A stretch of DNA of 64,000 bases from Ascidia mentula (lineage: Eukaryota; Chordata; Ascidiacea; Phlebobranchia; Ascidiidae). The stretch lies in contig OX387202.1 of assembly GCA_947561715.1 (NCBI GenBank), positions 2,108,001 to 2,172,000 on the forward strand. The letters run 5' to 3'. The notes below the pieces were generated by a model. It saw nothing but the letters and a program-made list of their open reading frames with translations. It made no database searches and had not been told where the DNA came from. The stretch's first letter is position 1; every line of letters starts with the position of its first letter. The position numbers were made by a program, and so were the translations under genes. Of this stretch, positions 10,501 to 55,963 are shown one piece after another.

Positions 10501-11257
10501 CTATAGACGAACTTCGCAACGTTTTCTCGAGGAACGGTATTCCGGAAAAGATTGTTTCTGACAATGGTCCTCAATTCATTTCACAGGAGTTCCAGACGTT
10601 CCTGAAGATGAACGGTATTCGTCATATGAAGACTCCTCCATACTCACCAGCCACAAACGGCCAAGCGGAGAGATTTGTACAAACCGTAAAGAGAGGTTTA
10701 CAGTCGATGTCAAACGAAACCGGGAGCATCAAAAGCAAACTGTCAAGATTTTTGCTGTCCTACCGCAATGCTCCTCATGCATTGTTAGGAGAGTCCCCTG
10801 CCAAGCTGTTCATCAAGCGCAATCTGAGAACCCGCCTGGATCTTGTTCAACCCGCGGGAGAGGGAAGGGTCGAGAAATGTGTAGAAAAGCACATCGACAA
10901 ACACCACGGGCAACGGCCACGAACATTTGCAGTTGGTCAAAAAGTGGCAGCCCTAGATTATCGCGCTCGTAGTAAGCGTTGGGCAGTTGGCGTCATTGAA
11001 AAAGTTCTCGGGCCACTGACCTATCTTGTACGTGTAAATTGTAAATTTATTTGGAAGCGTCACATTAATCAGTTAATTGACATGTCGGGAAATAACGTTC
11101 GTGATATTGTACAATGTAATTCGCCGTGTTTCGACGATTTTGTTTTTGATAACCGTTCCAACCTTTCGAACGACACTCATGCTCGTTATCCTACGAGAAC
11201 TCGACATCCGCCAACCAGATATGGATGTGAGAATTAGGATTTGTTTGTAGGGAGGAT

Positions 11258-16080: not shown

Positions 16081-17528
16081 GAAAACCAACTAATTTTTAA
16101 CACACATTGCCACAAAACTAAGATTGCCAAGGCCAATAATGCGTTAAAAGGGTAAAGCAATATTATATAATATATTATATATGTTGCGTTTTAAAGCGTG
16201 TTCTTGTACTGACTCCTTGTATCCGACACCAATCAGGTAAACAATCTTTTACTTAGATGGCTGAAACGTACGGCAGCAGTCCAAATGAAACCACAAGTTG
16301 AATGGAATCCAATATGGCCTATATAAAGCATGAACACAAGTCACAAGTGCCCGCTAGGCATGTCCGGGCGGACCAACAGGTTACGGCACTTTATAGTCCT
16401 TTATTGTTTTAGAGCCAGGGCGGTGGTTGTTTAAAAGTCTGTAATTAGTTCTGCACCGTTTGGGTTTACCTTTTGTACGTGGGAAACCGGTCACAAATAT
16501 AAACAATGGCAATAATGCATGTTTCATATTATTATACGCTGCGTTCGCTGCACTGTAATTCTTGCACTAAATAATATTTTGATTTTGATTTTTATACAGA
16601 TTTTTAGATTTTGTAAAGGTCGATCTGGGAATTGACTTGATCTGTATATTTAAACCAGCATGGTTCGAAAAAAATCCATACATCCTTCTCACAAAAGGTA
16701 TACAATTGCCGCAACATCAGTTTTGTGCCAGAAGGTGTTTAGACCAACAGCGTTATGCGACTAAGCAAGTGCTCTATAGACTACACTAAAGTGTATTGTC
16801 ATGCGAATATTTCAACAATGCAATATTAAAAAACAGCTATTGTGCATTTAGATTGAGTGATTATTTATTTCATAATGAAAATATCAACTTTGAACGATTG
16901 TCCTGGCATCAAAAAGATACATTTTCAGCTGAAACAGACATACGAAATTGTTCTGAGGTTCAGTCTCTTTGTAACTTAAAATCCACCAAATTACTTTTGC
17001 TTTGAAGCAACTTTTTATGACAAATCAGAGCAAAATACAAATGAACAATCACTCAGAGATATTTATGGTCCTAGTCATATCATACCACTACTTTACTTAC
17101 TGAGATGTTTCCATCGTCATTTAGTCTGTTTTGAATGACTTTTGAATAATTTGGTGAAAGTAAACATGCCTTATGGGCCACTCAAATACACTGGCTTAAA
17201 TCTCACAGGCCATATTTTTAAAAATATGAATAAATCTATCATGGTGACTTGATTTTCAAAACAATACAACGATATGTTCCTGAAATCTGTGTGCAGTTCC
17301 ATTTTTTCAATAGCAAATATGGAACTCACCAAGTGGGATTTAAAAAATATAATCTTGGCTCTAAATGCAAACTTAGGGTAGCCCCTGTTTTAATTGTGTT
17401 AAAGTTTTGCACATGTTGCTGTACACATGTACATGGTTATATTGTAACCTTTGTATGTGCTTATACAGACTGATGTGTGTAGCAACCCTGACTTCTATAT
17501 GTCTGTTTTTCAACTTTAGCAGTTGCAG

Positions 17529-17556
17529 AAACTGATGATGCCACGTTGGGCGAAAT
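17529..17556 (+). other. Hammerhead-core-like motif of a Penelope-type tail in a gene A intron
   Basis: AGAAACTGATGATGCC, a short loop and GGGCGAAATATAT match the tail of the Penelope-like element at 585-616, just upstream of the gene A exon at 17640. There is no stem I, so it is a relic and not a ribozyme. Confidence 0.45.
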
Positions 17557-19239
17557 ATATTTCATCAAAATCCAAAGAATAGAAATTAAAAATTTTGTAT
17601 TTTTGGGTTGATTTAACGCTCATTCTTACCTATTTCCAGACAAGCTCTTTCGACAACATTAGAAAGAAAGGTGACAAGGAGACTGGAGATAGAGGAAATA
17701 CTATGTGAATGCAGGAGGGCGTACGAAACAAATGATGAAGAGATAATTTCTTTAGAAGCTTCCTCGCTTCCTGATTGCCTCAATCTAAGTTGGTGTGAAG
17801 TTACTCCGGAAGAGATTGAAGCGCTCTCCTATGTTATTAAAAGAAGAGACAAACCGGTATTCCATCATAAAATTATAAAACTGCTGTTTGCATGGTATCA
17901 TAATTTAGCAAGTTGCGGTATAGTGCAATAGACTTATGGGCGTATCCAGGGTCCGGACACCACCCATGTCAATTAGTTTAATTGGTGAACACGTTGCCAA
18001 TATTACGCTTGTTGAAAACAACTGCTAGCGCTCGCAAAGAGGCATACAAGGCCTCCGCATGTAAAATAGTTTTATTTACACGTTTTCTTGATAACGTTAG
18101 CCCACATTTTATCCTTTTTGGTTACAAATATATTCAAGCCTTTCTTTCAAAGTAGTAGTAACAAAAATACTGCGCAAGCACTACCACAAAAACTCTTCGT
18201 CTTGTACTTTATCTAAACTTCTTTTAAATTTGTAAGTATATCAGTACGCAGGACGTGTGTTCATTATAATTTGTTGAATGACATTTGTGTTGGCAGAAAA
18301 CCGGGGAACAAACAACTTCCTTATTTGCAATCTAACAAATATCCTTATTTTACGATTATTGTTTCATTCAGATAAAGAAAATCATACTTTCCTGGAACAA
18401 GATAGGAGAAAGAGGAGCAGCGGCATTGGCTCGTTGCATTCACAACATTGAAGAACTTGATATGAGTGTTTGTGACATTGGAGATGAGGTTGTGGAAATT
18501 CTCTCAGAGAAGATTAATGATTTGCAAAAACCTGTAAGATACGATTAATTTTTTACGTGGTACCCATTATGGCAACAATGTTAAGTGTTCAGAATTTTTT
18601 TTACGTGAATAAACTTGTCACTGAAAACAGGTCTTTGTTGAACTTCTGTGGCAAAATTTGTTGTGTATCTGTTGTTTAGATGAAAGATCTGGATTTAAAC
18701 CTCAACAATGTGACGGATGTAGGTGCTGAGTCATTGGCTGGATGTATGCACAAAACAAAAAGTTTGTCGGTAATAGGTAACAAAATTACAAAGGCAGGAA
18801 GGGATCTCATCATTTCCAAAGTAAAGAAATAACATATGCATGCTTTTGTGAAAACACAGTTCTAAACTGTTTTCATTACAATTTCACCTGATCTAGAGAT
18901 TTAAAATTTTGTTATTTGCAACATTAACAGTAAAAAGAGTCTTCTCATAAATATCATAAATATCACATAACTTTTTATATGGAAACAACGGTATATTATC
19001 CAGACACATGAAAAATACGAAGTAATTCAGTCAAAATCATCAGTTGTTGGTGTGGAAGGTGACAAACTTGATGTGATGGGTTGTATTGTTGATATTCCTC
19101 CTAATGCACTGGAGACAAATGTAAAAATTTGGTTAAGAAGTTACTACGGAAATATCAAGCCAAATGTAAGTGGTTTTATAAATGCGATGTGAATACAGGA
19201 TTTTCCTGTCAAAACATATTAACTGCTTTCTAACGCTCA

Positions 19240-19390
19240 ATATCATACCTGGCGGGGGCATTGTTCAGGGCGGCAGTGGGCCCAGGGCGAGGCTTAGTCA
19301 TTGCACTTTGGCTTAGCTGACCCTAGCGATTACTCCAAATGTGGGTATTTGGCCACACAATTTCTGCTAGTGGAGACTGCATTCGTGCAA
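19240..19390 (+). pseudogene. U1 snRNA-derived sequence in a gene A intron
   Basis: Ordered matches to U1 are clear: ATACCTGGCGGGG at the 5' end (the 5' splice-site-pairing part is altered to TCATACCTG), CCCAGGGCGAGGCTTA, CATTGCACT, GCTGACCCTAGCGATT, CCAAATGTGGG, an altered Sm site AATTTCTGC at 19359-19367, and GACTGCATTCGTGC in the 3' stem-loop. Total length is about 150, slightly below the usual 160-165. The changed 5' end and Sm site suggest a pseudogene. It sits in sense orientation in the intron after the exon at 19004-19165, and a shortened relic lies at the same place in gene B (42775-42818). Confidence 0.85.
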
Positions 19391-22009
19391 ATTTTTAGTA
19401 TCAACATTTTATTCCACAAATCATGTTGGGAGCTTATCAACGTTAATGCACATACTGAGTGATTGGCTTTTGTCCCCAAAACCTATTCCTGTAGCTTTGT
19501 TTATTCAATTTCTAATTTACTGACTTGTAAGTCATTTACCCATGAACGTCCATTAGTGCAATTCAAAAATTAATGATGTAGCTGTACACAACAAGGATTT
19601 GTGGAGCCTGCAGGAGGATCCTAAGCCATTCTAGCTAAAATTATGTCCTTTGAGGGTGCTTTAAGCAACTACCACGCAACTAATTTTGACCTGAATTTGT
19701 AAACAAGATGCGGGTGTCAGTGTGTCAGTAAACGCTCCGTATATGAATATTATATAGGTTATTACGTTAATTGTCGTACAGCAGAACTAATAGACGTTTC
19801 CTATCAACGTTTTTACGAAACAAAGACGTGTTTTCTTTCCGGCCGTTTACAATAATCTGTTGTAATTGTTATGTCTCCTGCAATGCAAAGCAGTTCACCA
19901 AATATGTCACCATCACTTTACCAACATGTTTTGTGTGTGAAGATCGTCATCAACTTGTTGTGGTAAGTTTAAAAACCTCTTTAAAATGAAGGTAGTTTGT
20001 AGTTCCTATGTAGGACATAGATACACGAAATAAAACTGTTCAACAAAATGTTAAGGTTGAGACAAGTGAAGATGGTAAAACATGGGAAGATTATCAAACT
20101 TTTCCCTACAGTGGAGATGGGAAGATTGCATTCAAAGTAACTCACTTTACTTGGTAAGTGTATATTGATTACAAAATAAATGCAGGACAATTAATTTTTT
20201 TGCATTTAGGTTCCAAACATTGTTACAAAATTTCTTTTCTTGGTCAAAAAATAAAATTGTTATGGGTGGATTTCCATACAAAGAAGATTTTGACTGTGAT
20301 GAAAGACTCTGGAAATTTTTTATTTGCGATGACCTAAAATTTAATCAAGAGGAATATCCACATCTGGAGAAGTTAACTGAGTTTACTTTAAGGTGAAGAA
20401 CCAAGCAAATGTTGTGATTAGATGCGGTATTGATCAGTGTCTTGTAAAACCACATTTTCCTGTGTAGGCTTTTTCAATAGAAATTATGTTTTTGGGCCGG
20501 GTTCACACTCACGTTTTGCTTTGTTTGTTTTTTACCACCTGCATAAACACCTTTTGGTCACAAGAGGTCGCGAGCGTTCAGCGGATTATGCCCGTTTTCT
20601 TTGACTTTCAATTCTTTTCGAAGTTGCATTCCAAAGTGAGCTCACACGCGAACGGCTTGCTCGCAACATTATGTTTGGACCCGGCATTTAAGATGTTTTA
20701 GTAATCAATAGATAATTTTGAAACATTCTGCAGTAATACAAAAATTTCAAAAATAGTTTTTTTCTATTTCCCATTGCCAGGTCTTATCAAACTGAAGCAA
20801 CTCTCATACTTAAAAGTGAAAGTGGTCGAGTTACATTTTTGAAAAATGAAGTCATTTTGATGAATATTTATGCAATCAATTCAACAAAACGTGATATTAC
20901 TTGGAAGTTTGCTCCACACATTGGTTATGAAACAGTGAATGTTAAATTGAAGTTTGTTGTTGGAGAACCAGAAGAAGCAGATTTTAGTGCGAAAGTTAAC
21001 ATAAAGGAGGAACAACAAAATCAGGTCAGATAATAGAACTTTCATTGTCATTAGCTTTTCAATTGGCATTTTAAAACTGTTTATTCATTGTTTGTAGGAA
21101 GACATAAATCAACAATATGATCCAAAAATCCAAAAAGTGCTGAGTCAAGAAATGACGAAAAACAATCAAGTAGGGAAAAAGCGCATTTTCAAAAAGTAGA
21201 TTAATTGATGCAAAAAATTGTTTTACTTTTTGGGTTATTAAGAATAACAAACAAGAACAAGCTTCATTATGGCAAATAAACTTGTTCTTTTACACCAGGT
21301 CAATCTCAGGACATAGAGGCACAAGACTCAAACATAACAGACAGTTTTGTTGGAGTACAGGGTGATGTCCATCAACATTCTGGAAACAGACAGGTAAGAT
21401 CATTATACTACATGTGAACTATGCGGAATGTTTGTAATGAATGCAAACATCGCTAAGTGTATTTATCTGTAGCCTGCGTTATAATGTTGAACTTCAGTTG
21501 CGACTTATATTGGATTTTATATTAACTACGCTTGCTGTTTGCAGGACATTGGACACCAATCTGGGGTAAATATATTCGTAAATCAAAAAATCAATGCGAC
21601 AGAAACCTCAGGTAAAATGACAAACACTCAACAACTGATGCAAACTTCATCAGAAGGTTTGTATTTTTGTTAACTAAGATAAATGATTTCCATTAACATC
21701 GATTGTAGTGAAGATGCACAATTTTGTTACATAATCCGGCAAATATGTTATTTTTTGGGGAATTCGTTTGTTTAGCGTAACACATCCGTAATAAATCTTA
21801 TTATCTCACTGAAAGTCATTTGATTAAATGGCCATAAATTAATAAACAATCAAGTCACTCTGAGTGTGTTATATTTACCAGTAAACAAGATTAAAATTAT
21901 TGTCTAAATTAACGCAAACGAAATTGCGGAACAACTTTTATGCACAATGTTGCTGCCAGGAATATATATTATACTTCAATAGTCTGTTCGTCTGACTATT
22001 TAAATGTAA

Positions 22010-22100
22010 TTTTTATTGACCGGCTTTTCCCCTGCTATTCAGCTAGTGGCTTCCTTAGTGTAAGAACAGGTGAAACGTCGGTCAATAAAAATTACGTTTA
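22010..22100. repeat. Fold-back hairpin in the last intron of gene A
   Basis: Arms beginning ATTTTTATTGACCG and ending CGGTCAATAAAAATTACG are reverse complements around a loop near TAGTGGCTTCC. The same hairpin is in the last intron of gene B (45780-45880) and, inverted, at 61010-61110. It predates the duplications. Confidence 0.65.
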
Positions 22101-22184
22101 ATTGTGTCAGGGAAACAGTAACTAGACAATTATGGTTTTAATTTATTTTTAGATTCTGAATCATCATGCAGCAAAGATTGCTAA

Positions 22185-26012: not shown

Positions 26013-26191
26013 GTGTATCGAATTCTTCTTTGCCTATAGCACAGTAGGTGGCATTTCTCTTTTTTCGGTGCTAATTGCTTGTCGTAAAGTATGACTTCAT
26101 TCACAAGGAATAACTTTTATATTGTTACTTGCATTAAAATGGTTGGCATTTGTAATACAAGAAAAGCGGTCCTTCTAAAATGTGCTCGTGC

Positions 26192-26758
26192 ATCTATGTG
26201 GAGCTATGTGCAATTATATGGAGCTATGTGCAACTATGTGCAACTATGTGGAGCTATGTGCAACTATGTGGAGCTATGTGCAACTATGTGTCGCTATGGG
26301 GAACTATGTGTCGCTATGTGAACCTATGTGTCGCCATGTGCAACTATGTGCAACTATGTGTCGCTATGTGCAACTATGTGTCGCTATGTGCAACTATGTG
26401 CAACTATGTGCACCTATGTGTCGCTATGTGCAACTATGTGTCGCTATGTGCAACTATGTGTCGCTATGTGCAACTATGTGCAACTATGTGTTGCTATGTG
26501 GAAGGCTCGCAAGGCTTGGACGCTGCTTTTGAATTCTTTGTACACAAAAACACGATTTCAAAGCCTTCCGTGCCGGTAGGCTATGTGCAACTATGTGGAG
26601 CTATGTGCAACTATGTGTCGCTATGTGCAACTATGTGTCGCTATGTGCAACTATGTGTCGCTATGTGCAACTATGTGCAACTATGTGTTGCTATGTGGAA
26701 GGCTCGCAAGGCTTGGACGCTGCTTTTGAATTCTTTGTACACAAAAACACGATTTCAA
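26192..26758 (+). repeat. 10-bp minisatellite (CTATGTGnnn) with duplicated flank
   Basis: Tandem units of CTATGTG plus CAA, GAG or TCG run from about 26192 to 26500 and again from 26580 to 26697. Each block ends in the same non-repetitive segment of about 70 bp (26490-26560 and 26690-26758, starting GTTGCTATGTGGAAGGCTCG), so block plus flank was duplicated. Because the unit is 10 bp and lacks in-frame stops, all three forward frames stay open and give MCNYVQLCVA-type repeats. I regard these as by-products and not genes. Confidence 0.9.
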
Positions 26759-26759
26759 A

Positions 26760-28030
26760 AGTGTTTGGCGACCCGTGTTTCATGCAATGTAAACCTGGTG
26801 TATCTGTTGTTACTTCAACGTATCTTTGCCTAGTTTCGTTGATAAACAGTGGTCTTGATTTTGGCATTGTCTTGTATTGTTCTCCTTAGTATTGTTATTG
26901 TGTTATCGCTTCAACAGTGTGTATTCTTCGGTTACATCACGAACAAAAATTAGCAGGGTACTTGGCTGCTTTCCAGACAATTTGTCTCGATGATGCTACC
27001 ACAGTGAGTTTCATTAAAGGTCGGCTGACCTGGTATGGCTAGTTGCCACTGACTTGTCTGTTCACCTGTGCTCTCGGATGAGATACAGTAAATTCAAGGG
27101 TCTGTAGCGTACCACTTGTTTTCCAGGTCGGCGGCTTGAGCGGAATCTAAGACTGCTTCCGTGTTCTAGCTGTTGATACTGAACTCCGTGGCAGACTTAT
27201 TTATTACCTGAAAGACACGTTTGCAATGCCAGGCGGCGTGAAGTTTAAATTTGTTCCAAGCACGTTAGTGACTGAGCGATTAACTTCTACCGAGTGCCAG
27301 TTGTTAGTTAAGTGACCAAGACTGGTTGGGTGGCAAATTAAATAACAGAGAATGATAACGAACTAATGACAACGAATTGAGACCGAGAAATGTGTGAACG
27401 GGTATTTAACAAGTCACAATAAAAAAAGATCTGTCGTCTAGTCGGATGCCAGAAGGCTGTGCGAGTTCTGCCGGAAAGCCTAACACCGTCTGCAGCCTTC
27501 GGTCCGTCTGTGTTCCAAATGCGTGAAGAATTAAGTAGGGAAACATGCGTGTTGCTGCACATGTCCCTTCCTTGTGAAGATTGATAGTTTCTATCCGAAA
27601 TCCAATATCGTCTTGTCGTTAGGTTGTTGTGCTGTGAGTTGCGTTGAATCGATTGAATGTTTTGCTCATCGTCTGTGTCTCGGTCGTGGTCGCAAGCTGT
27701 CACGTTTTTTTTCTGTGTACAAAAGAACACCGGCAGTAAAATGCTCAAACAATTTAAAATATCTACGAAGCGTTTATGGAAATTGCGTGTTGCATGACAA
27801 ATTAAAAATGTTATTAAAAACTAAAGTGAACCACAAATTCTATCGCATTGAAGCGTGCGCAACAAATGCTTACATTCCAGCACATTTGAAGACTAATGCC
27901 TCTGCTTGTAAAAAAATACGCTCGTAAAAATGAAACGGTTTGCAGCATCGCGATCCTTGGTTCTTAAAGCGAACCTAAGCAAGCGACTTAAAAATGGAAT
28001 TTTATTGCTTTCCTTTGTCTTTTTATGGCT
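26760..28030. other. Intergenic, no recognisable gene
   Basis: Several open frames of 100-136 codons exist on both strands around 27.3-27.9 kb. None shows a recognisable domain, and base use resembles the surrounding retroelement-rich DNA. It may be unidentified retroelement debris. Confidence 0.35.
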
Positions 28031-35858: not shown

Positions 35859-38800
35859 ATGGATCCAAAAAAATCACAATCTGAAAGTTCACAAATTAAA
35901 TCAAAGACAGGATCTTCGACAAATAAGCAACTTCCACTAAAGCAGAAAAAACATCCTTCTCATAAAAGGTATGTAATTGCCACAACATGACTTTTGTGCC
36001 TGGAAGCTATTTAAACCAACAGTGTAATGCCATGAGACTGCAACGTATGCTGCAATAGGCAAGCTTAGTGAAACTTAATTTTGAGTATATATAATGTCTG
36101 TTTCAAGGCAACTATCCCTCGGATCAACATACCTGTCTTCCTGTTACTTTCTTTAGTAATATAATATTCTCAGTAGTTTCTTCCAATCAAAATATGTTTA
36201 TTCTTTTAGGCCATGTGAATCCAAACAGCATATGTTACAGAGTTAGCATCGAATCGCATTAAGTCTAAGTATAGAATCAGAATAGAATGACCAAACATCA
36301 GACTGCAACACAGGTATCCCAGAGCATAGGAAATAATCTACGCAATATCTTGAACTAACACTGAACAGCAATGTGGAGCCAATAATATGAATTGTGTATA
36401 AGGTGCAGACAAAGTCGTCTTATAGTCACAGCAGCTGCACTGATGAGACATTTTAGGTCGAAACAGTGGCCATATGTCTGCAGCTTATACATAACACTGA
36501 ACAGTTCACATGGGAAACAGGATTTGCTTACACACACATGCATTAATTATACTTGACAACTCATCGAGTTGACGTTGTGGTGATGACGTACAATATTTCA
36601 GCTTGGTATTTATAAGATCATAGCAAGACTATGCAGATGTGCTACAGATTACAGCGTAACTGAAACCTATAAAGAACTTATTGTCATGCGAATATTTCAA
36701 CAATGAAAAATTGGAAGAAGCTGCCCATCCAAATGTTGATGTACCAGCTGTTGTGCATTTAGATAAAATGATTTAATATGTCATAATGAAAATTTAACAA
36801 TCTGTGCTGGCATCAAGCAGTTGTATGTAGGCTGAAATGTTTCTTTGAAATTGTTCCAAAGATCTATTCAAAGTAGCATAAAATCCGCCAAATTTGTGTT
36901 GCTTCAAACTTTTTATGATAAGTCAGAGCAAAATACAAATGAACAAACACTCGGAGAAGTTTGGCCCATGGTCCCATACCATATCAATACTTCACTGACT
37001 GAACTGTCTTCACCTGCATTTAGTCTGTTTTCAATGACTTTTGAATAATTTGGTGAAAGTAAACATGCCTTATTGGTCACCCAAATACACTGGCTTCAAT
37101 TTCATTGGTCATATTTTTTGAATGTTAGCATTGGTTTTTAGTGAACATGTTATTAATTTCTTCATAAAAACCATCATGGTGACCTTGGGTTCCAAAACAA
37201 AATACCCAGATGTTCCTTGAAGCATGTTTTAAATTTCATCTGACACGTTAGGACTCACAGACAGGATCAAATACAGTAGAAGAAACTTTACCAAAACTCC
37301 TTGGAGGGAAATGTCTGGGACTTAGAAATTTCATGTTCTCTATAAAAGATTTTTATTGATTTCTACTGTAAACTAACTTTGGTGTCATTGCATAGATGAG
37401 AGATAGGCCTTGCATAAAACCACAGTAGGTAGAATACTTTTGACCACTCATTTTTCTACAAATTCCAATTGCATTTTTTACCTAATTTGTATAAATTTTC
37501 AGGTATATACAAAAGACTCATTTTTATCAAATAATTTTCACTTATTCACAACCACTTCTGTGATATTCCTAAATTTTCTGTGTGAAAATTTTTTTTTTCT
37601 TTTAATACCATATATGGATAGTTTAATATATAAAAATTACCAACTAAAAAGGTTTGATGAAGGTATATGTGGTGATGAGCAGATGGAATCACAGACAGAA
37701 ACGGAGACAAAGGCAACTTTTCAAGTCAGTTGTATATGGTGGGCAGTGTACAGAATAGAATGCCAAGCACAGAACTTGCAAATGCAGGCCATGGTCAGAT
37801 AGGGAATATCAGGTGTGCATAACAAGTTTACATTGGAGGCTAAGACAAGCTTGTGTTTGTATGTTCACAGTTGAGCCAGCGTCATCAGAAAGTAGTATTG
37901 GAAATTTACACAACACCACAGTATGTGCTTATAGAACTTATTTTTTAGTACTGATAAAAAAAGGTTATCTAAGGTGTAAAAGATATTTCTGGTGGATCAA
38001 CATCACAAACTTTTACACTAAATCTGACAAATATTATTGCATAAATGTGCAGTAGCCTGTATGTAGATTTCTCCTTGGTAAGAGATAGTGTAGTAGCTAA
38101 GTCATGTTCAACAAAAAAGGTGTAATTAAATCTTTATATTGAACAATATCACCAAAAAGGACACAAGACTCTGGATATTCCTCTGGACATTCCTCTGAAC
38201 ATTCCTCTGGACATTCCTCTGGATATTCCTCTGGACATTCCTCTGTCCATTCCTCTGGACTTTCCTCTGGATATTCATCGATATTAGCAGGTGATGACCA
38301 TAGGCGATGATTTAGGGGTGACTGGGGTGACATGTCATCCCTCACAAACAAACAGGGGTGACAACGTGTGTATTGTCACCCCTGGATTTCGTTTAAATTA
38401 AAAATTATGGTCAGAAGAACCACATACATTATACTATGCATAAAGCTAGTTTCAAACAACTTGTATTATCACCGTCACAATCATGACAAACACAAGCGTC
38501 TCGTGGATTATTACGCAGCGCAGCAGTTGTTGTAGCATAGTGGTAAAAATCAGCATTGTTGCGTAATAGATTTGTTTGTCACTTCATAATTACTAAATCT
38601 GCAATAGACCGAGTAAAACAAAAATGTGCTGCTTTCAGTAAGGGGGTCAATAATTAAAGTGATTAAAATTTAGTGCTACAACAACATGATTCTGTGTTAA
38701 AACAAAGTGACACGAAAGGGAATTTGCGTAGTTTACGTATGTTCAGGGCGATACGATTGATGAATGTTTTTTGCGTGTTTTTATAAATTGGAAAGTCACC

Positions 38801-41800
38801 CTTAATATTTTACAAAACGTTACAAAATCGACGCCTATGGTGATGACATAAACGCTCGCAAAGGTCAACAGTTTTCTGTTTTAAGTGAAATTAACTACAA
38901 CATATATTTTATCCCACCATTCGATAAAACATGATAAACAATAAATAATTATTAATAACAAACTTATAGTAGTGTTATACGATAATGTTATGTCATTGCT
39001 TGATATTATGTATCAAAATGAATTATATCAGTGTAAATTTGCAGTTTCAACTAAAAGATTAGATCCAATGTTCTCTGCCCCCTATTGGAGGAGACCTGAC
39101 CAAAGTGCAATACTCCATGAATGCATGAGGGCCTACAAAACAAATGATGAGGAGATAATTTCTTCAGTAGCTTCCTTACTTCCTGATTGTCTCAATCTAA
39201 GTTGGTGTAAAGTTACTCAGGAAGAGATTGAAGCCCTCTCCTTTGTTATTGAAAGAAGAAACAAATCGGTATTATTTTATAGTTAATGAAAATTCTTAAC
39301 AACATGATAAGCAAATATATACAATATATACATAATGTTTCAACTTTTTGTAAAGCGCTCACAGTTTAGTGCCAAGGATGTGCTGTCATTATATTTAATT
39401 TTTTGAAAACCATGTACTCCTTCCGTGTTTGTATTCTCACAAATATCCTATTTCAAGTTGATTGTTAAAATAAGTAAAAAAATTTAAAAAAATTGAGTTT
39501 ACTTTATTACTCAGTATGTGTGGCCATTACACTTTCTTGCTTGACTGCGTGTTCGTTGAAAACCATGTATCCCTTCCTTGTTTGTATTCTTACTAATATT
39601 CTAATTGGATGTTTATTGTTTCATTCAGATGAGGATGCTCTATCTCTCCATGAACAAGATAGGATATAGTGGAGCTGCTGCATTGGCTCGTTGCATTCAC
39701 AACATTGAAGAAATTAATCTGGATGATTGTGACATAGGAGAAATGGGTGTGGAAATTCTCTCAGAGAGGATTAAAGATTTGCAAAAACCTGTAAGATACA
39801 AATCAGAATTCAAGTAAAGCGTGGCAATTGGGTGTTGTGTAATTTCATATCACCACAAAATGAAACAATAAGTAAATATATTTAAAAAAAAAAGTTTATT
39901 TCTGTACTCAGGTTGTCTTATCATTATACTTTCTTGTTTGACATGCGTGTTCATTGAAAACCATGAACCCCTTCCTTGTTTGTATTCTTATATTCTAATT
40001 TCAAGTTCATTGTTTTATTCAGATGAGGAAACTCTATCTCTCCAGGAACAAGATAAAAGATAGTGGAGCAGCTGCATTGGCTCGTTGCATTCACAACATT
40101 GAAGAAATTAATCTGGATGATTGTGACATAGGAGAAATGGGTGTGGAAATTCTCTCAGAGAAGATTAAAGATTTGCAAAAACCTGTAAGATACAAATCAG
40201 AATTCAAGTAAAGCGTCGCAATTGGGTGTTGTGTAATTTCATATCACCACAAAATGAAACAATAAGTAAATATATTTAAAAAAAAAAGTTTATTTCTGTA
40301 CTCAGGTTGTCTTATCATTATACTTTCTTGTTTGACATGCATGTTCGTTGAAAACCATGTACCCCTTCCTTGTTTGTATTCTTATATTCTAATTTCAAGT
40401 TCATTGTTTTATTCAGATGAGGAAACTCTATCTCTCCAGGAACAAGATAAAAGATAGTGGAGCAGCTGCATTGGCTCGTTGCATTCACAACATTGAAGAA
40501 CTTGATCTGGATGATTGTGACGTAGGAGATCATGGTGTGGAAATACTCTCAGAGAAGATTAAAGATCGGGAAAAACCTGTAAGATATCAATCAGATGCAA
40601 GTGAAACATGACTATCGGTTGTTGAGAACTTTTATATCATCACAATAAAAAAATGTGAAAATTAGTTATTAAATTTTGTAAAATTGGATCTATTTCTTTA
40701 CATAGGATGTGTGGTCATTATACTTTCCTTGCTTGACATGCGTGTTCGTTGAAAACCATGAACCCCTTCCTTGTTTGTATTCTTACTAATATTCTAATTT
40801 CAAGTTCATTGTTTCATTCAGATGAGGAATCTCGATCTCTCCAGGAACAAGATAGGAGATAGTGGAGCAGCTGCATTGGCTCGTTGCATTCACAACATTG
40901 AAGAACTTGATTTAAGGCTTTGTGACATAGGAGATCATGGTGTGGAAATTCTCTCAGAGAAGATTAAAGATTTGCAAAAACCTGTAAGATACAAATCAGA
41001 AGTCAAGTGAAACATGACTATTGGTTGTTGAGAAATTTTATGTCATCACACTAAAAAAATCTGAAAATTAGTATTTTAATTTTGTTAAATTGGGTCTATT
41101 TTGCTACTCAGGATGTGTGGTCATTATATTTTCTTGCTTGACTGCATGTTCGTTGAAAACCATGTACCCCTCCCTTATTTGTATTCTTACTAATATTCTA
41201 ATTTCAAGTTCATTGTTTCATTCAGATGAGGAAACTCAATCTCTCCAGGAACAAGATAGGAGATAGTGGAGCAGCTGCATTGGCTCGTTGCATTGACAAC
41301 ATTGAAGAAATTGATCTGGATGATTGTGACATAGGAGAAATGGGTGTGGAAATTCTTTTGGAGAAGATTAAAGATTTACAAAAACCTGTAAGATACAAAT
41401 CGGAAGCCAAGTGAAACATGACTATTGGTTGTTGAGAAATTTTAAAAACACAACAAAAAAATGTGAAAATTAGTCATTAAATTTTGTAAAATTGGGTCTA
41501 TTTTGGTACTCGGGATGTGTGGTCATTATACTTTTTTGCTTGACTGCATGTTATTCAAACCTGTAAGACACAGTTAGTCCTTCACTTGTGCTTGGTTTGG
41601 TCTTTTTTCCATTGTTCATATTCTGTTTTGTGACATGAAATTCTCTCAACAGAATAAAAAATATTAGAAACACCTGTAAAATTAACTTTTCACTATTTCA
41701 GACTGTTTTATCACTTACACTAAAAAAAGTAGCTTTTACTACAGGATCTGCCTGACTTTTTGTCTGGAAGGTTGTTTTGCCGTGGCACAGTAGCATTGCA

Positions 41801-44800
41801 AAAGATCTAAGTTTTTTTTTTATGAATAGTCTATTTTTTGCTGTTGTTGTTTTTCAGCATTTTTAATATCATTTTATTGTGTTTACTGTATGGAACTTTC
41901 TGATAAAAAGCCAGGTTTATCCTGTATTAAAAAGCTACTGCTCTTTTTAGTGTGATTACAAAAGTTTACAGTGATTGCTTGGCCTGCATCTCCAGTTTTG
42001 GTTGGAACCCAATTTTTCATTTTTAAATTCAGTTTTATCACTTATGTTTGTTTGTGGTAATTTGTTTACATTATCCACTGTAACTATGCAACTATCTGAT
42101 ATTGTCCATTTTCTGTTGTTCACATTGTGAATAACCAAAAGATATGGTTAACAACTAAAATTAGTTGTTTATCGTGAAATAGTTGTAATTTTGTTCAACA
42201 TTCTCTAAAATTCTTTGGCAATATTTGTTATGTAATATCTGTTGTTTAGATGAAATATGTGAATCTACAAGGCAACAGTTTGACGGATGAAAGTGCTGAG
42301 TCATTGGCTGGATGTATGCACAATATTGAGAGGTTGTCGGTCATAAGATATAACAACTTTACACAGGCAGGGAAGGATCTCATCAATTCTGAAGTGATTG
42401 AAATAAAATGCATGTTTTTGTTGAAAACATAGTACAAAACTGTTCATTACAATTAACATTTTTTTTGCTCCAAAAATTGCTTTGGTCTGTTGCAAGGTTT
42501 TATATGATGTTTAATTTACAACTATAAAGAAACTTATCATATATACTACTAATATCATTGTAATGACTGAGAAATGACTAATAATTATGTTTTCTATGTT
42601 TTACAGAAGCATAAAGAATATGAAGTAATCCAGTCAACATCATCAGTGGTTGGTGTGGAAGGTGGCAAACTTAATGTAATGGGTTGTGTTGTTGATATTC
42701 CTCCTAATGCACTGGATAAAGATGTTAAAATTTGGTTGAGAAGTTACTATGGAAATACTAAGCCAAATGTGAGTGGCTTAGCCATTGCACTTAGACTTAG
42801 CTCACCCTTGCGATTAACTTATCAATTTCTAAAAAAAATAAAAAGGTTAATATCAAAAGTATCAATATAAATCTCATCAACATTAATGTTTTGTGAATGT
42901 GACGCAACTCAACAAAGAGCCATGTGGCGTGGTCTAACTCCTTTTCCAGAACTTTCAATTTTCCCAAGTACAATTCAGACCTAAACGCGTAAACAAGAAG
43001 CGGGTCTAACATAAAACAAAAAAGACAACTGACGGATTTTTTTTTTAAAATGTTTAGAGGACGGATTCGATTACACCTCTGAACATTTTAATGCTTTTTT
43101 TAAATAATTTTTGTCAACACCCTGCAATAAATGACTACCTGACTGAATTGGATAAAAATGAAATAAAATTGCCAAAACGTGTTCAAAATCGCTTTGCAAA
43201 ATCACTTGCTTTCCTGAGCACCCACCCCTTAAATTTGATTCCCATACATCACCTGGTTGCTTTGTTATGTGCGCTTATCTCTATGACAGACTTTTTATAT
43301 AGACCAAAAGTATATGTTCTGGTCCAAACACTTAATCTGTTTAAACAAATGACAAAAAAAATATCGATGCATCAAAAATACACAATTTTTACAACCATGT
43401 AGAAACATATGGAATATTTTATGTTTGTTGTCTTTACAAATGCAAGATGTAATTTATTGGCTGTTAGCAAGTAAAATGTTTCTTTATTGAACAATTATAT
43501 TTAAACGTTTTTTCTTGGGTTTTCATTCCACAGAAGGAAATTACTCCATTGTTGTATTGTGGACCAAGTGGGTTAAAGTTCACCAAAGATGTCACCATCA
43601 CTTTACCAACATGTTTTGTGTGTGAAGATTCACAACGTGTTGAAGTAAGTTTAAACATTCACCTTTTGGCCTTTACTTAAAAGTGCTTTCGTGTAAATTA
43701 GCAAAAAAAACTAAACTGTTACAAAAAAACTAAACTATTAAGTTGTGGTGTTTTTCTAATAGTTTTTATCATTACGTTTAACTCTCAGCATTTATTGATT
43801 GTTAAGGCCATATTCAAAAATAAAAAAATAAATCCACTTAAATTTATTCAGTCAACGTAGAAGTAGAAGTGTTAAAATGCATTATGGAGTAATGAAGCTA
43901 GTTTATAGTTCCTATATAGGACAAAGATACACGAAATAAAACCGTTTAACACAATTTTAAGGTTGAAACAAGTCAAGATGGAAAAACATGGGAATATTAT
44001 CAAAGTTTAAACCACAGTGGGGAGGGAATGATTTCGTTTAAAGTAACTCACTTTACTTGGTAAATGTATACTGATGACAAAATAAATACAGGATAATTAA
44101 TTTGTTTTCATTAAGGTTCCGATCATTGTTAAAAAATGCCTTTGCTTGGTCGAAAAATAAAATAGTTATGGGTGGATTTCCATATAATGAACCTTTTGAC
44201 TGTGATGAAAGACTCTGGAAATTTTTCATTTGCGATGACTTGAAATTCAATCAAGGGGAAAATCCACATCTGGAAAAGTTAACTGATTTTGCTTTAAGGT
44301 GAAAACCTAGCAAATGTTATGATTTTATGTGGTATTGATCAGTGTGTTGCAAAAAGGCATTTTCCTGTGTAGGCTTTTTCAATAGAAATTATGCCTTTTG
44401 GACCGGGTCCACACTCACGTTTTGCTTTGTTTGTTTTATAACCACCTGCGTATACTCCTTTTGGTCACAAGAGGTCGAGAGTTCTGCAGTAACACAAAAT
44501 ATTGAAATTAGATTTTTTCTATTGATTATTGCCAGATTTGCCAATTTTTTGTATTAATTATTGCCAGATATCATCAAACTGAAGCAACTCTTATACTTAC
44601 AAGTGAAAGTGGTCGAGTTACATTTTCGAAAAATGAAGTCATTTTGTTGAATATTTATGCAATCAATTCAACAAAACGTGATATTAGTTGGAAGTTTGCT
44701 CCACACATTGGTTATGAAACAGTGAATGTGAAATTGAAGTTTGTTGATGAGGAACAAGAAGCAGATTTTAGTGCGAAAGTTAACATAAAGGAGGAACAAC

Positions 44801-45961
44801 AAAATCAGGTGAGATAATAGAACTTTCATTGCCACTATCTGTTCAATTGGTATTTAAAACTGTTTATTCATTGTTTGCAGGAAGACATAAATCAACAATA
44901 TCCAAAAAGTGCTGAGCCAAGAAATGACGACAAACAATCAAGTAGGGAAAAAGCGCATTTTTAAGTATATCAATTAATGCCCAATATTGTGTTACATTTT
45001 GGGTTATTAAGAATAACGAAGAAGAACGAGTCTCATTATGGTAAATCAGCTTGTTCTTTTACACCAGGTCAATCTCAGGACATAGAGGCACAACACTCAA
45101 ACATAACAGAAAGTATAGTTGGAGTTCAGGGTGATGTCCATCAACATTCTGGAAACAGACAGGTAGAATCATTATACTATATATTTGAACTATGTGGAAT
45201 GTTTGAAAAGAATGCAAACATCGCTAAGTGTATTTATCTGTAGCCTGCGTTATAATTTTGAACTTGAGTTGCGACATATATTTGATTTTATATTAACTAC
45301 GCTTGCTGTTTGCAGAAAATTACACATCAGTCTGGGGTAAATATATTCATAAATCAAAAAATCAATGCGACAGAAACCTCAGGTAAAATGACAAACACTC
45401 AACAACTGATGCAAACTTCATCGGAAGGTTTGTAGTTTTGTTAACTAAGATAAATGATTTCCATTAAGTCACATCGATTGTAGTGAAGATGCACAATTTT
45501 GTTACATAATCCGGCAAATATGTTATTTTTGGGGGAATTCGTTTGTTTAGCGTAACACATCCGTAATAAATCTCACTGTCTCACTGAAAGTCATTTGATT
45601 AAATGGCCATAAATTAATAAACAATCAAGTCACTCTGAGTGTGTTATATTTACCAGTAAACAAGATCAGAATTATTGTCTAAATTAACGCAAACGAAATT
45701 GCGGAACAACTTTTATGCACAATGTTGTTGTTGCTATCAGGCATATTATACTTCAATAGTCTGTTCGTCTGACTCATCAAACGTAATTTTCATTGACCGA
45801 CTTTTCTCCTGCTATTCAGCTAGTGGCTTCCTTAGTGTAAGAACAGGTGAAACGCCGGTCAAGAAAAATTACGTTTAATTGTGTCAGGGAAACAGTAACT
45901 AGACAATTATGGTGTTAATTTTTTTTTAGATTCTGAACCATCATGCAGCAAAGATTGTTAG
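35859..45961 (+). CDS. Gene B: LRR-ZU5-UPA protein (PIDD1/FIIND-like), about 789 aa
   Basis: Proposed exons are 35859-35968, 39058-39268, five LRR exons (39629-39790, 40023-40184, 40417-40578, 40822-40983, 41226-41387), 42250-42393, 42607-42768, 43534-43644, 43962-44059, 44116-44298, 44568-44808, 44881-44941, 45068-45162, 45316-45427 and 45930-45961. From exon 2 on, all junctions are in phase and have AG acceptors. Approximate residues are a Lys/Ser-rich N-terminus 1-37, LRRs 108-425, ZU5 426-549 ending HFTW, UPA-like 550-690 (LWKFFICDDLKF; ending FSAKVNIKEEQQ), and a polar tail to SCSKDC. ZU5-UPA proteins such as PIDD1 and NLRP1 self-cleave at HF/S, so HF/T suggests the same here (inference). 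No signal peptide, membrane segment, death domain or NACHT is seen; a cytoplasmic sensor or scaffold is likely. Weak points are the exon 2 acceptor (AAAAG), one GTGATT donor, and whether further exons lie between 35968 and 39058. Confidence 0.8.
36363..36510 (+). mobile_element. Fold-back hammerhead element copy in gene B intron 1
   Basis: GTGGAGCCAATAATATGAAT (the inner part of the terminal repeat) is followed by AATTGTGTATAAGGTGCAGAC, a central block with CAAAGTCGTCTTATAGTCAC, and then one hammerhead arm. It is the same family as 52073-52260 and 59176-59368. The far terminal repeat is not visible. Confidence 0.6.
36433..36485 (+). ncRNA. Type I hammerhead ribozyme (slightly degenerate)
   Basis: Stem I is AGCTGCA (36433-36439) with TGCAGCT (36479-36485). 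The core is CTGATGA (36440-36446). Stem II is GAC/GTC with one mismatch next to its TTTTA loop. GAAA is at 36460-36463. Stem III is ACA/TGT with a fourth mismatched pair, and the cleavage triplet is GTC at 36476-36478. It lies in the first intron of gene B, on the gene's strand. The weakened stems II and III make activity uncertain. Confidence 0.65.
37490..37930 (+). other. Possible additional 5' exons of gene B
   Basis: An open stretch at about 37614-37728 could end at a GTCAGT donor-like site. A small open segment at about 37872-37920, after TTCACAG and before GTATGT, reads VEPASSESSIGNLHNTT. They have exon-like edges but no counterpart in gene A and no recognised domain, so I left them out of the model. 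Confidence 0.25.
38169..38285. repeat. 12-bp minisatellite
   Basis: Tandem units close to GGACATTCCTCT repeat about nine times, with the variants GGATATTCCTCT and GAACATTCCTCT. The minus strand reads as EECPEE repeats because 12 is a multiple of three. It lies in a gene B intron, and I do not treat the open frame as a gene. Confidence 0.8.
39629..41387 (+). repeat. Five tandem LRR exon units of gene B
   Basis: Five exons of exactly 162 nt (54 codons, phase 0) start at 39629, 40023, 40417, 40822 and 41226, with periods of 394, 394, 405 and 404 bp. Each carries two RI-type repeats: LSRNKIxDSGAAALARCI and the half ending CDIGxxGVEILSEKI. Introns are also alike, and the first two units are nearly identical through the intron, so amplification was by tandem duplication and is partly recent. 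Gene A has a single such exon (18372-18533). Because every unit is a whole number of codons, gain or loss of units keeps the frame. Confidence 0.92.
42607..44808 (+). other. ZU5-UPA (FIIND-like) exon block of gene B
   Basis: ZU5 is carried by exons 42607-42768 (GGKLNVMGCVVDIPPNAL), 43534-43644 (ITPLLYCGPSGLKFTKDVTI) and 43962-44059. The ITPLL-CGPSGL-F wording is diagnostic of ZU5. The last of these ends FKVTHFT, with W completed across the intron. UPA-like exons 44116-44298 and 44568-44808 carry LWKFFICDD and VTFSKNEVILLNIYAINSTK, aligning by pattern to the UPA of UNC5 and PIDD1. The HF/T position is where PIDD1 and NLRP1 have their HF/S autocleavage sites. Confidence 0.8.
42775..42818 (+). 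pseudogene. U1 snRNA relic in a gene B intron
   Basis: GGCTTAGCCATTGCACTTAG and CTCACCCTTGCGATTAACTT correspond to the middle of U1 and to the U1-derived sequence at the same intron position in gene A. It begins six bases after the exon end, next to the GTGAGT donor, so a deletion removed the U1 5' half. Confidence 0.75.
45780..45880. repeat. Fold-back hairpin in the last intron of gene B
   Basis: Arms AAACGTAATTTTCATTGACC and GGTCAAGAAAAATTACGTTT flank a short loop. It is the same element as in gene A (22010-22100) and at 61010-61110. Confidence 0.6.
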
Positions 45962-47213: not shown

Positions 47214-48105
47214 TAGGGGAGACCGGAGATAACTCGCACGTTATTTTTAGAAAATTGCTCATATGTGTTTTTTGTAATGTGTACCACATTCCTAAATTTT
47301 ATTTCTTAGTAAGTAGTGAAGCATTGCCCAAAAAACAGAAAAGGTTTTTTGTTTCAGCTCATTTTTTAAACAGGTCTTAAATGTCCGAAGTCACATCGGG
47401 GTAATATCGGACGTTACTGGTGATAGCTCGGACATCAAGTTTTAACAGACGTTTTTTTGTTTATTTAAAAATAAACTGAAATCAAACTTGGCGCAATACC
47501 AGCATTGGGGCATTAGCGCATAAAATATCATTCAAGCTTTCAGGAATCGTTGCGTGGCCACTTGCGGTTTCGACCCTTCCACACGTACAGGAATTTCCAA
47601 TACTTTGGGTAACTCGTGTACTTTTCACGGCAGCATGGATATCATGTATTTTCGTGTCAACAAACGAATTTTTATCTATGGGTTCTTCTTACTGCCAAAA
47701 TCCGACAATTTCATCCAGCCTCTGTATATTCTCTTCTATGACCTGATAATTTTGCCTAAAACTCAAATAGTGTGGTCTCCTCGCTATTTTTTGCCATCAT
47801 GTCAAAAGTATTCCCGACCACGTGACGATATAAAAATCACAAAAATATGATCGTATTTTTTAACGTTAGGCAAAATCATCATTGGCCCATCCAAGAATAC
47901 GTGGTTGAATATGCAATCAACCAATCACTACTTCTTTTTGATTTACTGTGACTTTGATATAACCTTCCACATACAAATTATAATTTTCCAAGTAGGCATG
48001 ATTTAATTTTAAAGTTCCTGTTTACGTGTCATGGGGACATAAAGCTTTTGTGAAACAATACCTAATTGTGACGTAAAATACCTCGTCCGAGGTATCCCCT
48101 TCCCT
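47214..48105 (-). mobile_element. TIR DNA element, copy T2
   Basis: It starts TAGGGGAGACCGG at 47214 and ends near 48105 in a degraded inverted counterpart (GGTATCCCCTTCCC). It is collinear with T1 and T3 but in opposite orientation. No transposase frame is intact. Confidence 0.6.
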
Positions 48106-48159
48106 GCTATTGTAGGTGTTATATACTTTTCATGTGTTGGGTATTCTAAAAAATAATAT

Positions 48160-49982
48160 AATGAATTTGAGATGTTCCATGTGGTCTGCATGTGGTCTGC
48201 ATGTGTTGGACTTGCGACAAGAATGTCGTCCAGATAGACATAAATAAAATCCAAACCTTGACAAATGGCGTCCATGAGCCGTTGGAAAGTTTGAGCCGCA
48301 TTCTTCAATCCAAACGGGGTTCGAAGAAACTCAAACAGGCCAAATGGCGTGATTACAGCTGTCTTCGGAATGTCAGCTTCAGCCACGGGAACCTGGTGAT
48401 AACCACGTACCAAGTCTATCTTTGAAAAAACGGAACAACCCGCGAGACGCGCGGTGAAATCATGGATATGCGGTATAGAATAACGATCGGCCTGTGTGGC
48501 GTCGTTAAGGCGACGATAATCGCCGCAAGGGCGCCAGCCACCGGAAGGCTTTTCCACCATGTGGAGAGGGGATGCCCAAGGACTGGCTGATCGGCGCACT
48601 ATGCCTAAATCCAGCATTTTCTGAAACTCGGCTTTAGCCAACACTAACTCTTCAGGCGAGAGGCGCCTGACTCGGCAATGCACAGGGCGCCCATCAGTTA
48701 CAATGTGATGCTGAACACCGTGCTTAGGCAAGAAATCACAAAATCTAGGTGTTTTTACCTTTGAGAACTGCTCCAGCAACTTCTCGTAGGGGCAAAGCAC
48801 GGAATTGAGAGTTCGAAGTTGTGGCGGTTGTTGTAGAGACGTTTTCAAGGGGTAGCTCGCGAACACCTCTGCGTGAACAAGACGTTTTCTTTCAACATCG
48901 ACAAGCAGGCGATTAGCGCGGAGAAAGTCAGCACCGAGCAGTGGACGTGAGACATCGGCCAACACGAACTTCCATTTGTAAACACCAGAGGGAATGTGCA
49001 GTTGAACAACTTTGTATCCGTAAGTGGCTATGGAGCTTCCATTAGCGGCCTTGAGAACGGAACCCTTGCGTGTGGTGCGACGTTCGAAGCCAGTGGGGGG
49101 AAGTGCGCTGACTTCAGCACCAGTGTCAACCAAAAAGTTGCGGCCGGAAACCTTGTCCCAAAGAAAGAACAGGCTGAAAGAGACGCCAGTTGCCCCAGCC
49201 ATTACCGGCAACCGGCGTTGTCGTTTCCCTGATAAGCGCACGGAGGGCAGCATTGGCGCGCGTCTGCTCCAAAGCGCCTGTGATAAAAGCACATGCTGGA
49301 GGGCTTCGCAGTGCGGCGTGGAGCTGACCGAGTGCTATCCTCCTTGCTGACAGCAAATTCCGCTCTGTTATTGCGAGAAAGCCACAATAAATCCGCCCGT
49401 TTGGCAAGCTGCCGCGGATCTGCAGTATTCTCACGGGCCAAAACCACTCTAATATCTTCCGGCATGTGCTGCAGGAACAAATGATGGAAAAGAAAGCAAG
49501 CGTGGTGGTCACCTAACAAGGCAAGCATTTCGTCCATTAAAACCGACGGTTTCTTATCACCTAACGGTGGCATGTTCAGGAGACGGGCTGCACGTTCTGG
49601 TGGGGAAAGAGCAAATGATTGCAGCAAGCGCCTTCGAATGGCTTCAAACTTGTTTTCGGCAGGCGGCCGTTCAAGCAAGTCAATAAGTCGCGCTGCTGTG
49701 GCCTGGTCCAAGGCCGAAACCACGTGAAAGTACTTTGTTTCTTCTGCTGTGATCTTCTTTATCGCAAACTGCGCGACAGCGTTTTCAGTCTCCATAACCT
49801 CCAAATAACGGTTTTGGAGACTCGGGGTCACTAGTAAATCGGTTGATGCTTTATTGCGTGAGTCAGAAAGGGGCAAGCAACACAATAAACACGTGTATAT
49901 AAGGCGGCAATCGCGACACGGGAAAAAGGTAATAGCACGCTTCAATGCACAGGCGAACACTACAGTTCGGTCGCCACAATAA
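48160..49982 (-). mobile_element. CsRn1-clade Ty3/gypsy fragment, 3' half missing
   Basis: On the minus strand the parts in order are a short LTR-like leader with AATAAA, a primer-binding-like GTGACCCCGAG (about 49822-49832) resembling the tRNA-Trp complement used by the CsRn1 clade, gag with a CHCC-type motif (CFYHRRFGADARQC), aspartic protease with LVDTGAEVSALP, and reverse transcriptase with YVYLDDILVASP. RNase H, integrase and the 3' LTR are absent. Its GC content is well above its surroundings. It is a truncated fossil with about one further break. It interrupts the left arm of the inverted duplication; the right arm is uninterrupted at the corresponding point near 58480. Confidence 0.85.
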
Positions 49983-49984
49983 GG

Positions 49985-50640
49985 CCTAGATGCAATAGCA
50001 GGATGTTCGAGTTTTCTTTCCAGATGTCCAGATCCTCCTACATTGATATTTAGGAGTGTTCACATCACCGCCATTGAAATATGTGCAATTAGACAACAGA
50101 ACGATCTCGACGGTTTTGGGAGTTCGAGCAACGCATATACTTGAAGACGTTCGCAATCTTTCACATTTCAACAATCACCACCGGTTTTACACGTGCGGGA
50201 GTCAATCATTTAACTACAATCTCTATACGAGTACAAGGAGTTCATTAGAAAACCACGTCAAAACACAAGGACAACTCATCCAAGAGCAATCGGATCAATA
50301 TTCGGAAATTCGAACAAATAACGCGAACCACCACCGAACCACAATATTCATCAACCAAAATACACATGAAACTCACTTTAACTCGGAAAGCATCTTGAAC
50401 GAGGGGGAAGTGTGTTTATCGTCAAACGTAATATTTGCAATTATTATGTTGTGTTTTACACTATTTCTGGCACCACCCGTTTTAACGTCGGACAATAATC
50501 ACGCTTTTAAACCCATTCAACTCATTAACGGTGAACATGCTACGCTCGTAATAGATGTGTATGCTTGTGTTTTGTTTCCAAAATACGTTTGAAGTTGTGT
50601 TCCTTTCTGCGTGAAATTCATTTGTCAAAATGACAGAAGT
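49985..50640 (+). mobile_element. Family X LTR element, internal tail plus 3' LTR
   Basis: The internal tail (49985-50410) runs into a purine tract (CGAGGGGGAAG) and then an LTR-like block starting TGTGTTTATCG. It matches the inverted copy 57404-58470 and, less closely, 32460-33310. The long open frame here reads through the tail into the LTR and has no recognisable domain. Incomplete fossil. Confidence 0.55.
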
Positions 50641-55340: not shown

Positions 55341-55754
55341 TTTTGGCGTGCGTGTGGGACCAGAAACGTCTGATTCCCACATATCTGTGTTGTGTCTTGG
55401 TGTATTCTGAATAAAACAAACGAACCCAAGTTTGGTTTATCTGAAGTCTGGAGTCAGAAGTCAGGAAACAAATTCAATTGCAGATGAACACGTAATCAAC
55501 AAACAAAACTACACCAATTCTTACAGGTTATCGCAGTTAAATCCAGAAACATGAAATGTTTTCCAAACAACCATACTTTTGAAAGTCCTGAACCAAGTGA
55601 ATTAGAGAATGTACATTATAGGTTACAAATTGTTTGCCATAAAGTACAACAGATTCATGCACGAAGTTATTAAAAAAAACGAAGGCACAGGAAATGACTA
55701 AGCAATTATTAGTTTTGAAGTTGTAAACCTTTTATATTTACCTAAAATTTCCAG

Positions 55755-55963
55755 GTACTGCAATTACTGGCTGCACTTTAATTAAACCACATATTAACAT
55801 AGCAGGTGGCTCATTTAACACAACAAACACTCAACAACCGATGCCAACTTTATCACCAGGTTTGCATGGTGTTTGCTGATTGCACACACGCATAAACTTA
55901 CAAAAATGCTAAAATTTGAATATATGTTTAGATGCTGGTCCTTCATGCAGTAAAAATTATTAG
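55755..55963 (+). pseudogene. Orphan last two exons of the LRR-ZU5-UPA family (fragment C)
   Basis: The penultimate exon at 55755-55859 (after TTTCCAG) contains NTTNTQQPMPTLSP and ends in phase 1. The last exon at 55932-55963 reads DAGPSCSKNY and stops. Placement and phase equal those of genes A and B. No upstream ZU5 or UPA exon is recognisable, because LTR-like DNA precedes it, so this is a 3' relic. Its 3' flank is closest to that of fragment D. Confidence 0.65.

Follow-up and report, generated by a model that had tools for sequence, protein, structure and literature searches.

Sequence analysis of a 64,000-nt window of Ascidia mentula DNA (C70:2108001–2172000, contig OX387202.1, of a 196-Mb genome) revealed two related genes, gene B (35859–45961, + strand) and its paralogue A (16660–22184, +, also L012). 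The mitochondrial COX1 gene, read with the ascidian code, has Gly for AGA/AGG codons at positions where COX1 is conserved as Gly, which places the host among the ascidians. Gene B is best explained as a cytosolic sensor of innate immunity from an ascidian family with lineage-specific expansion, with a leucine-rich repeat (LRR) sensor part, a ZU5 domain, a domain in the UPA position and a C-terminal tail. At sequence level, the analysis established the gene structure, a family-wide His-Phe-Thr/Ser (HF[T/S]) site at the end of ZU5, and a tail motif exon shared with NOD-like receptor (NLR) genes; the shared tail motif is more surprising than the HF/T site. The presence of the motif both in the tails and ahead of NLRs suggests how a cut could pass on a signal, and we see about an even chance that autocleavage releases a UPA-tail fragment and that this fragment then engages NLRs by a homotypic motif of RHIM/amyloid type. 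Loci are cited by labels of the form L0xx and contigs as C2, C52, C67, C69, C70 and C71; positions without a contig refer to the window. A preliminary description, which had called gene B a PIDD1-like LRR-ZU5-UPA gene with Thr in place of the Ser of the HF/S cleavage site, was partly supported as a whole.

Reading of splice sites and frame gave a 17-exon model for gene B, open throughout (789 aa), with GT-AG introns, and this bore out the earlier exon-by-exon reading. The LRRs and ZU5 described there were recovered by Pfam, as eight LRR_6 stretches and one ZU5 domain (PF00791, residues 437–514; 26.5 bits for the whole protein and 29.2 bits for the domain piece, cut-off 21). The ZU5 match is encoded by ZU5 exon 1 (42607–42768, +) and ZU5 exon 2 (43534–43644, +); ZU5 exon 2 also weakly matched chains of ZO-1 (E 0.007) and UNC5B (E 0.22). 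According to the gene model and the family site alignment, ZU5 exon 3 (43962–44059, +) carries H546-F547-T548 (44049–44057), with the predicted cut between F547 and T548, and the adjoining 44059/44116 splice forms the codon of W549. In paralogue A, a 13-exon model that was also open throughout (538 aa), HFTW occupies residues 294–297, with the HFT codons at 20143–20151. The HFTW observation in both paralogues was confirmed, and it held across the family.

Searches with a ZU5-to-UPA query gave at least 166 exon matches genome-wide at E 0.001 or better. Most of the listed family matches lay within C70:2.09–2.64 Mb, the others being on C70, C52, C69 and C71. By their sequences, they look like a lineage-expanded family of about forty genes resembling self-cutting immune sensors. 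ZU5 scored above the Pfam cut-off in 8 of 10 family proteins scored singly (gene B and nine others) and below it in two. The site was counted in 42 site exons that are complete, all of them on C70 or C52, with the C69 and C71 places set apart. Its residues were F (42), H (41), T (38), S (3) and A (1), in the combinations HFT (37), HFS (3), HFA (1) and NFT (1). An F/S or F/T site at the end of ZU5, which marks the FIIND/ZU5-UPA autopeptidases, was thus present by sequence as HF[T/S] in 40 of the 42. A 43rd, partial copy (L062) also reads HFTW. Among the six places listed for cousin ZU5 genes on C69, HFT was found in both that were read; these cousins, L004 and L005, belong to a second ZU5 family, whose site reads HFTKY, and L004 also has a VGVQGNV tail.

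All four Thr codons are used at the site, and no other codon of the site exon has as many synonymous pair differences, although near-identical copies inflate such pair counts. A tree built from the UPA exons, with 39 of the 42 rows, gave 14 changes of this codon and four of the residue, and a simple neutral estimate gave P of about 0.004 for so few residue replacements. The three Ser copies (TCT, TCA and AGT) arose separately on this tree. That three of four replacements led to Ser had P of 0.02–0.11, which is weak alone. Because the Thr codon varies synonymously and the three Ser copies are separate, the site pattern fits selection for a hydroxyl nucleophile, from which we infer the cutting itself.

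HFT could instead have a purely structural part in the last strand of ZU5, in a domain that folds without cutting, as in UNC5b, which is not known to cut itself, and the ankyrins. The conservation of other site-exon residues (F26 in 42/42, V28 in 41/42 and W33 in 39/42), the failure of Pfam to recognise UPA and the one HFA copy agree with such a structural role. Phe is not needed for the UNC5b-type fold, because UNC5b has Leu at that position (accessible part of PMC3210808), and, besides the one Ala, Thr was replaced by Ser alone, through three different codons. The end of the Nup98-autopeptidase model weakly matched the site stretch in one of the 10 members of set A1 (E 0.013, below cut-off), in favour of cutting; this counts for little, because chance-level PDB matches (E 0.1 or worse) span the same stretch. 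A purely structural role is rather unlikely on this evidence. Apart from the HFA copy, self-cutting is disfavoured by a stop in the exon following the site of one Ser copy (C70:2336489) and by the upstream position of the catalytic His, 27 residues before Ser in NLRP1 and CARD8, which by simple counting is Gln in gene B.

The HF/T site looks unusual, as had been proposed. No natural HF/T in ZU5 or FIIND proteins was found in the open-access papers that the searches covered, including the accessible parts of PMC3210808, PMC8081665, PMC3334886, PMC3482391 and PMC8195603, though H-X-S/T is called the canonical motif of GAIN/GPS sites in the available text of PMC13062082. Acyl shifts of such sites can start from Ser, Thr or Cys (PMC3210808, same part). 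The ascidian RHIM and ZU5 literature, as far as its text was accessible (including PMC12881547), held nothing on an LRR-ZU5-UPA-position family.

A conserved domain of about 140 residues follows HFTW in the UPA position across the family. In gene B, it is encoded by two exons (44116–44298 and 44568–44808, both +), which were assigned by family conservation, the second with identity of at least 34% in relatives. The UPA-like sequence of the preliminary description therefore stood as a conserved domain in the UPA position, and the name UPA is given by position alone. Pfam UPA (PF17217) had no match in gene B, paralogue A or the 10 members of set A1; UPA identity was also unsupported by a PDB profile search (sets A1 and A2) and by hhalign against a PIDD1 piece (probability 0.3%), and all of these results count against self-cutting. 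Exon by exon, Pfam UPA had no match genome-wide, a test that is insensitive to split exons, because no UPA gene of any kind was recovered. Pfam FIIND was absent among the matches at E up to 1. Of the hidden Markov model checks proposed earlier (ZU5, UPA and FIIND), only the ZU5 match in gene B was obtained.

The Pfam scan found no death domain or CARD in gene B, which agrees with the earlier statement that none follows UPA. With one ZU5, no death domain and LRR_6-type repeats, the "PIDD1-like" label did not hold as kinship, and PIDD1 orthology was ruled out by the single ZU5 and the missing death domain. The gene should better be called an LRR-ZU5-UPA-position protein with a signalling tail.

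Decay of genes A and B, with site conservation merely reflecting recent duplication, was also considered. Paralogue A has fewer LRRs, the UPA-position domain and the same tail motif; its model lacks one ZU5 strand (in gene B, KEITPLLYCGPSGLK) and has no Pfam ZU5 match, so A may be degenerate. The linker exon of gene B (exon 14, 44881–44941, +; 61 nt, ending in phase 1) is 11 nt shorter than its counterpart in A (72 nt, phase 0), and some relatives carry stops in UPA exons. Gene B itself is open over 17 exons: use of an acceptor lying 11 nt farther upstream preserves its reading frame, and copy L011, whose linker exon has 64 nt, shows the same tail phase. Between clades, about half of the UPA-position sequence is different (44–50% identity to B, and 15% for the C69 cousin), with HFT kept throughout. 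Decay with recent duplication is judged improbable.

The exon after the UPA-position domain of gene B carries SNITESIVGVQGDVHQH. This tail motif exon (SQSQDIEAQHSNITESIVGVQGDVHQHSGNRQ; 45068–45162, +) was placed by its acceptor, the AG of which precedes the core by exactly 50 nt, and by the genome-wide motif pattern. The tail motif S-x-V-G-V-Q-G-[DN]-V was present in 11 C70 family members, including B and A. Genome-wide, the pattern VGVQG[DN]V had 51 exact matches, against 1 for the reversed pattern. For 24 of these, a same-strand NACHT exon followed within 3 kb, where 0.1 such cases were expected: 17 of the 17 matches in C69:16.87–20.86 Mb, 6 of the 8 in C2:16.1–16.84 Mb, and one on C70. The NACHT exons came from searches with two NACHT proteins as queries (with scores for 116 of 289 and for 138 of 284 candidates), which were used because none of the motif-paired NACHT exons was among the best 95 of 317 candidates of a Pfam NACHT search. 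The exons behind the motif in L079, L080, L081 and L082 were all NACHT by Pfam (4/4); L080 carries VGVMGNV and stands outside the 51 exact matches. With the L079 NLR motif as query, the 11 family tails were recovered at E 0.001–0.004. The tail, described earlier as only polar, thus holds a conserved exon module that also lies ahead of NACHT exons elsewhere in this genome, so that description was too weak. As in amyloid NLR pairs, the same motif occurs ahead of NACHT and in a putative partner protein, with the exon joining read from position.

Sixteen further motif matches lay beyond the tails and the 3-kb NACHT set: 5 in C69:4.69–4.81 Mb, of which the one read is the cousin ZU5 gene L004, 6 in C2:2.21–2.69 Mb, and 5 others. 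Within C2:2.21–2.69 Mb, L083 adjoins a TPR-like exon and two matches in L088 have no clear domain. Two matches on C2 have a NACHT exon 4–6 kb away, and the three on C67 and C71 are exon-like (L084), unclear (L086) and probably due to chance (L087). In L083 (C2:2609500–2612500, −), the tail motif is followed by a long exon that is weakly similar to TPR (E 0.017, below cut-off) and may be a further partner. Separately, the best L079-motif match after L079 itself (73% identity, E 5e-6) was at C70:3825697–3825795 (−), roughly 2 kb upstream of where the HFA gene has its ZU5 exon.

The AG lay exactly 50 nt before the core in 8 of 8 distinct family contexts read and, outside the family, in 6 of the 11 contexts (p 2e-5). 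From this AG position, the motif exon seems to be a single phase-1 exon that has moved from one gene family to another. The flanks before the core resembled those of gene B in 6 of 8 comparisons: L079, L080 and L083 (0 of 20,000 shuffles), and L081, L082 and L084 (p 0.006–0.014).

Several points weigh against the proposed link between tails and NLRs. Few independent events are represented, because the 24 NACHT-linked matches sit in three stretches of duplicated genes. The exact motif was found at 17 of the 44 listed C69 NACHT exons, the other 27 having no motif or an altered form, and in only 11 family members, many others having a second type of tail. The flanks of L088 and L004 were unlike B, the L079 and L080 flank scores are biased because both loci were first found by tail similarity, and the L086 and L087 matches are unconvincing. 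Splicing of the motif exon to the NACHT exon is inferred from position.

RHIM identity found no support: seven motif and tail peptides had no Pfam RHIM match at E up to 10, a test in which the type-2 tail peptide carried an error at its start and HMMER filters drop most weak matches. The L079 motif peptide, the sole motif peptide searched, had no PDB match. These negatives count against a RHIM-type motif, and together with the core VGVQGDV, which lacks the RHIM tetrad, they favour a short docking peptide for a common partner over an amyloid/RHIM-like assembly motif. The L079 motif NINNSVVGVQGDVHNY presumably resembles the human RIPK3 RHIM with a shift. Against a docking peptide stands the layout, with an end motif in one protein and the motif ahead of the NACHT domain of an NLR, which is as described for amyloid signalling pairs in the accessible part of PMC7889193. 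A docking peptide is a possible explanation, held with less than even confidence.

For the RHIM/amyloid-type mechanism, the following order of events is proposed. ZU5 would cut itself between F547 and T548, with Thr as the nucleophile. By analogy with NLRP1 and CARD8, the two halves would stay joined until the N-terminal half is removed or altered. The freed C-terminal half would then expose the VGVQGDV motif, which could meet its counterpart, encoded a short way ahead of NACHT in NLR genes and beside the TPR-like exon, and the tail and NLR motifs would assemble, probably as a RHIM-type stack.

Many other family members end in a second conserved tail exon, like GTAITGCTLIEPHINIAGGSVNKTNTQQ. 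As an NLR-shared motif this tail type 2 was rejected, as its 42 matches at E up to 10 were all within contig stretches holding the ZU5-UPA family. Tail-type-2 exons also form two tandem runs (3 and 9 matches, about 341 nt apart) at C70:3811869–3819955 (partly L071); the HFA gene lies upstream of them on the same strand. An orphan type-2 tail exon (GTAITGCTLIKPHINIAGGSFNTTNTQQ) was found at 55754–55852 (+) by a genome match (C70:2163754–2163852) and a local scan; among the matches listed, there was no ZU5-UPA match between gene B and C70:2187565.

The remaining exons of gene B are all on the + strand. Exon 1 (35859–35968) has a start codon and a basic N-terminus, and was assigned by its open frame, GT donor and a layout like that of exon 1 of paralogue A. 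Exon 2 (39058–39268), the LRR cap region, fits exon 1 in phase and is similar to 17640–17856 of A; its acceptor was picked to keep the frame. Five LRR exons of 162 nt (39629, 40023, 40417, 40822 and 41226; 39629–41387) are supported by splice sites, frame and Pfam LRR_6, and the last LRR exon (42250–42393) by frame and splice sites. With their introns, the exons at 39629–41387 are in tandem at a spacing of 394–405 nt, an exon duplication altering the number of LRRs. By the gene model, a tail exon (45316–45427) carries HQSGVNIFINQKINA...TNTQQLMQTSS, the end of which resembles tail type 2 by eye, and the last coding exon with the stop is at 45930–45961.

Elsewhere in the window, long open reading frames at 7500–11237 (+) and 48009–50059 (−) resemble retroelement polyproteins by eye, and repetitive open frames rich in Cys-Asn-Tyr-Val and in Glu-Cys-Pro-Glu were present at 26156–26889 (+) and 38097–38375 (−). 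On C70, NACHT exons at 0.17–1.97, 2.68–2.97 and 3.93–6.04 Mb (within 0.17–6.05 Mb) flank the ZU5-UPA cluster at 2.09–2.64 Mb, and this region is possibly an immune supercluster.

If the site cuts, it would be a FIIND/PIDD autopeptidase that naturally uses Thr, and the natural Ser and Ala copies would serve as built-in comparisons. The mechanism, if true, would give a concrete output for ZU5-UPA sensors without death-fold domains, in tunicates, which are close relatives of vertebrates. More tentatively, an ascidian amyloid-type NLR network is conceivable, in which an autocleaving Thr-nucleophile ZU5-UPA sensor would free a motif fragment that templates NACHT receptors. Such a network, which we think doubtful, would give animals an equivalent of the amyloid signalosomes of fungi and bacteria, linked to NLRP1/CARD8-style sensing through loss of the N-terminal half, and would use an animal signalling motif besides RHIM.

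Compared with known systems, there is a resemblance in motif layout to the fungal and bacterial NLR amyloid motifs (PP, HET-s and BASS) and animal RHIM: one short motif stands ahead of NACHT and again where a second protein of that genome ends. The ascidian motif, a putative amyloid, differs in having no Pfam match, in its partner, a ZU5 protein and not a HeLo/Bell effector, and in its animal host. PIDD1, of the PIDDosome, shares the LRRs, ZU5, the HF/S-type site at the end of ZU5 and the UPA position; it has two ZU5 domains, Ser and a death domain, whereas gene B has one ZU5, Thr, LRR_6-type repeats and a motif tail (accessible part of PMC3210808, and general knowledge). The FIIND of NLRP1 and CARD8 (ZU5-UPA-CARD) has in common ZU5, the cut site, the UPA-position domain and a C-terminal signalling part after it, while gene B has no CARD or NACHT in the same protein, no upstream His by counting, and a motif tail. 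The His at −2 of gene B is as in PIDD and Nup98. TRADD-N proteins fused to FIIND or UPA-ZU5 combine a ZU5 autopeptidase with a signalling adaptor (PMC8195603, available text), and differ from gene B, which has no TRADD-N in the Pfam scan. The family also has a parallel in the lineage-expanded ZU5 proteins of sponges, a ZU5 expansion proposed to serve defence in the accessible text of PMC3482391.

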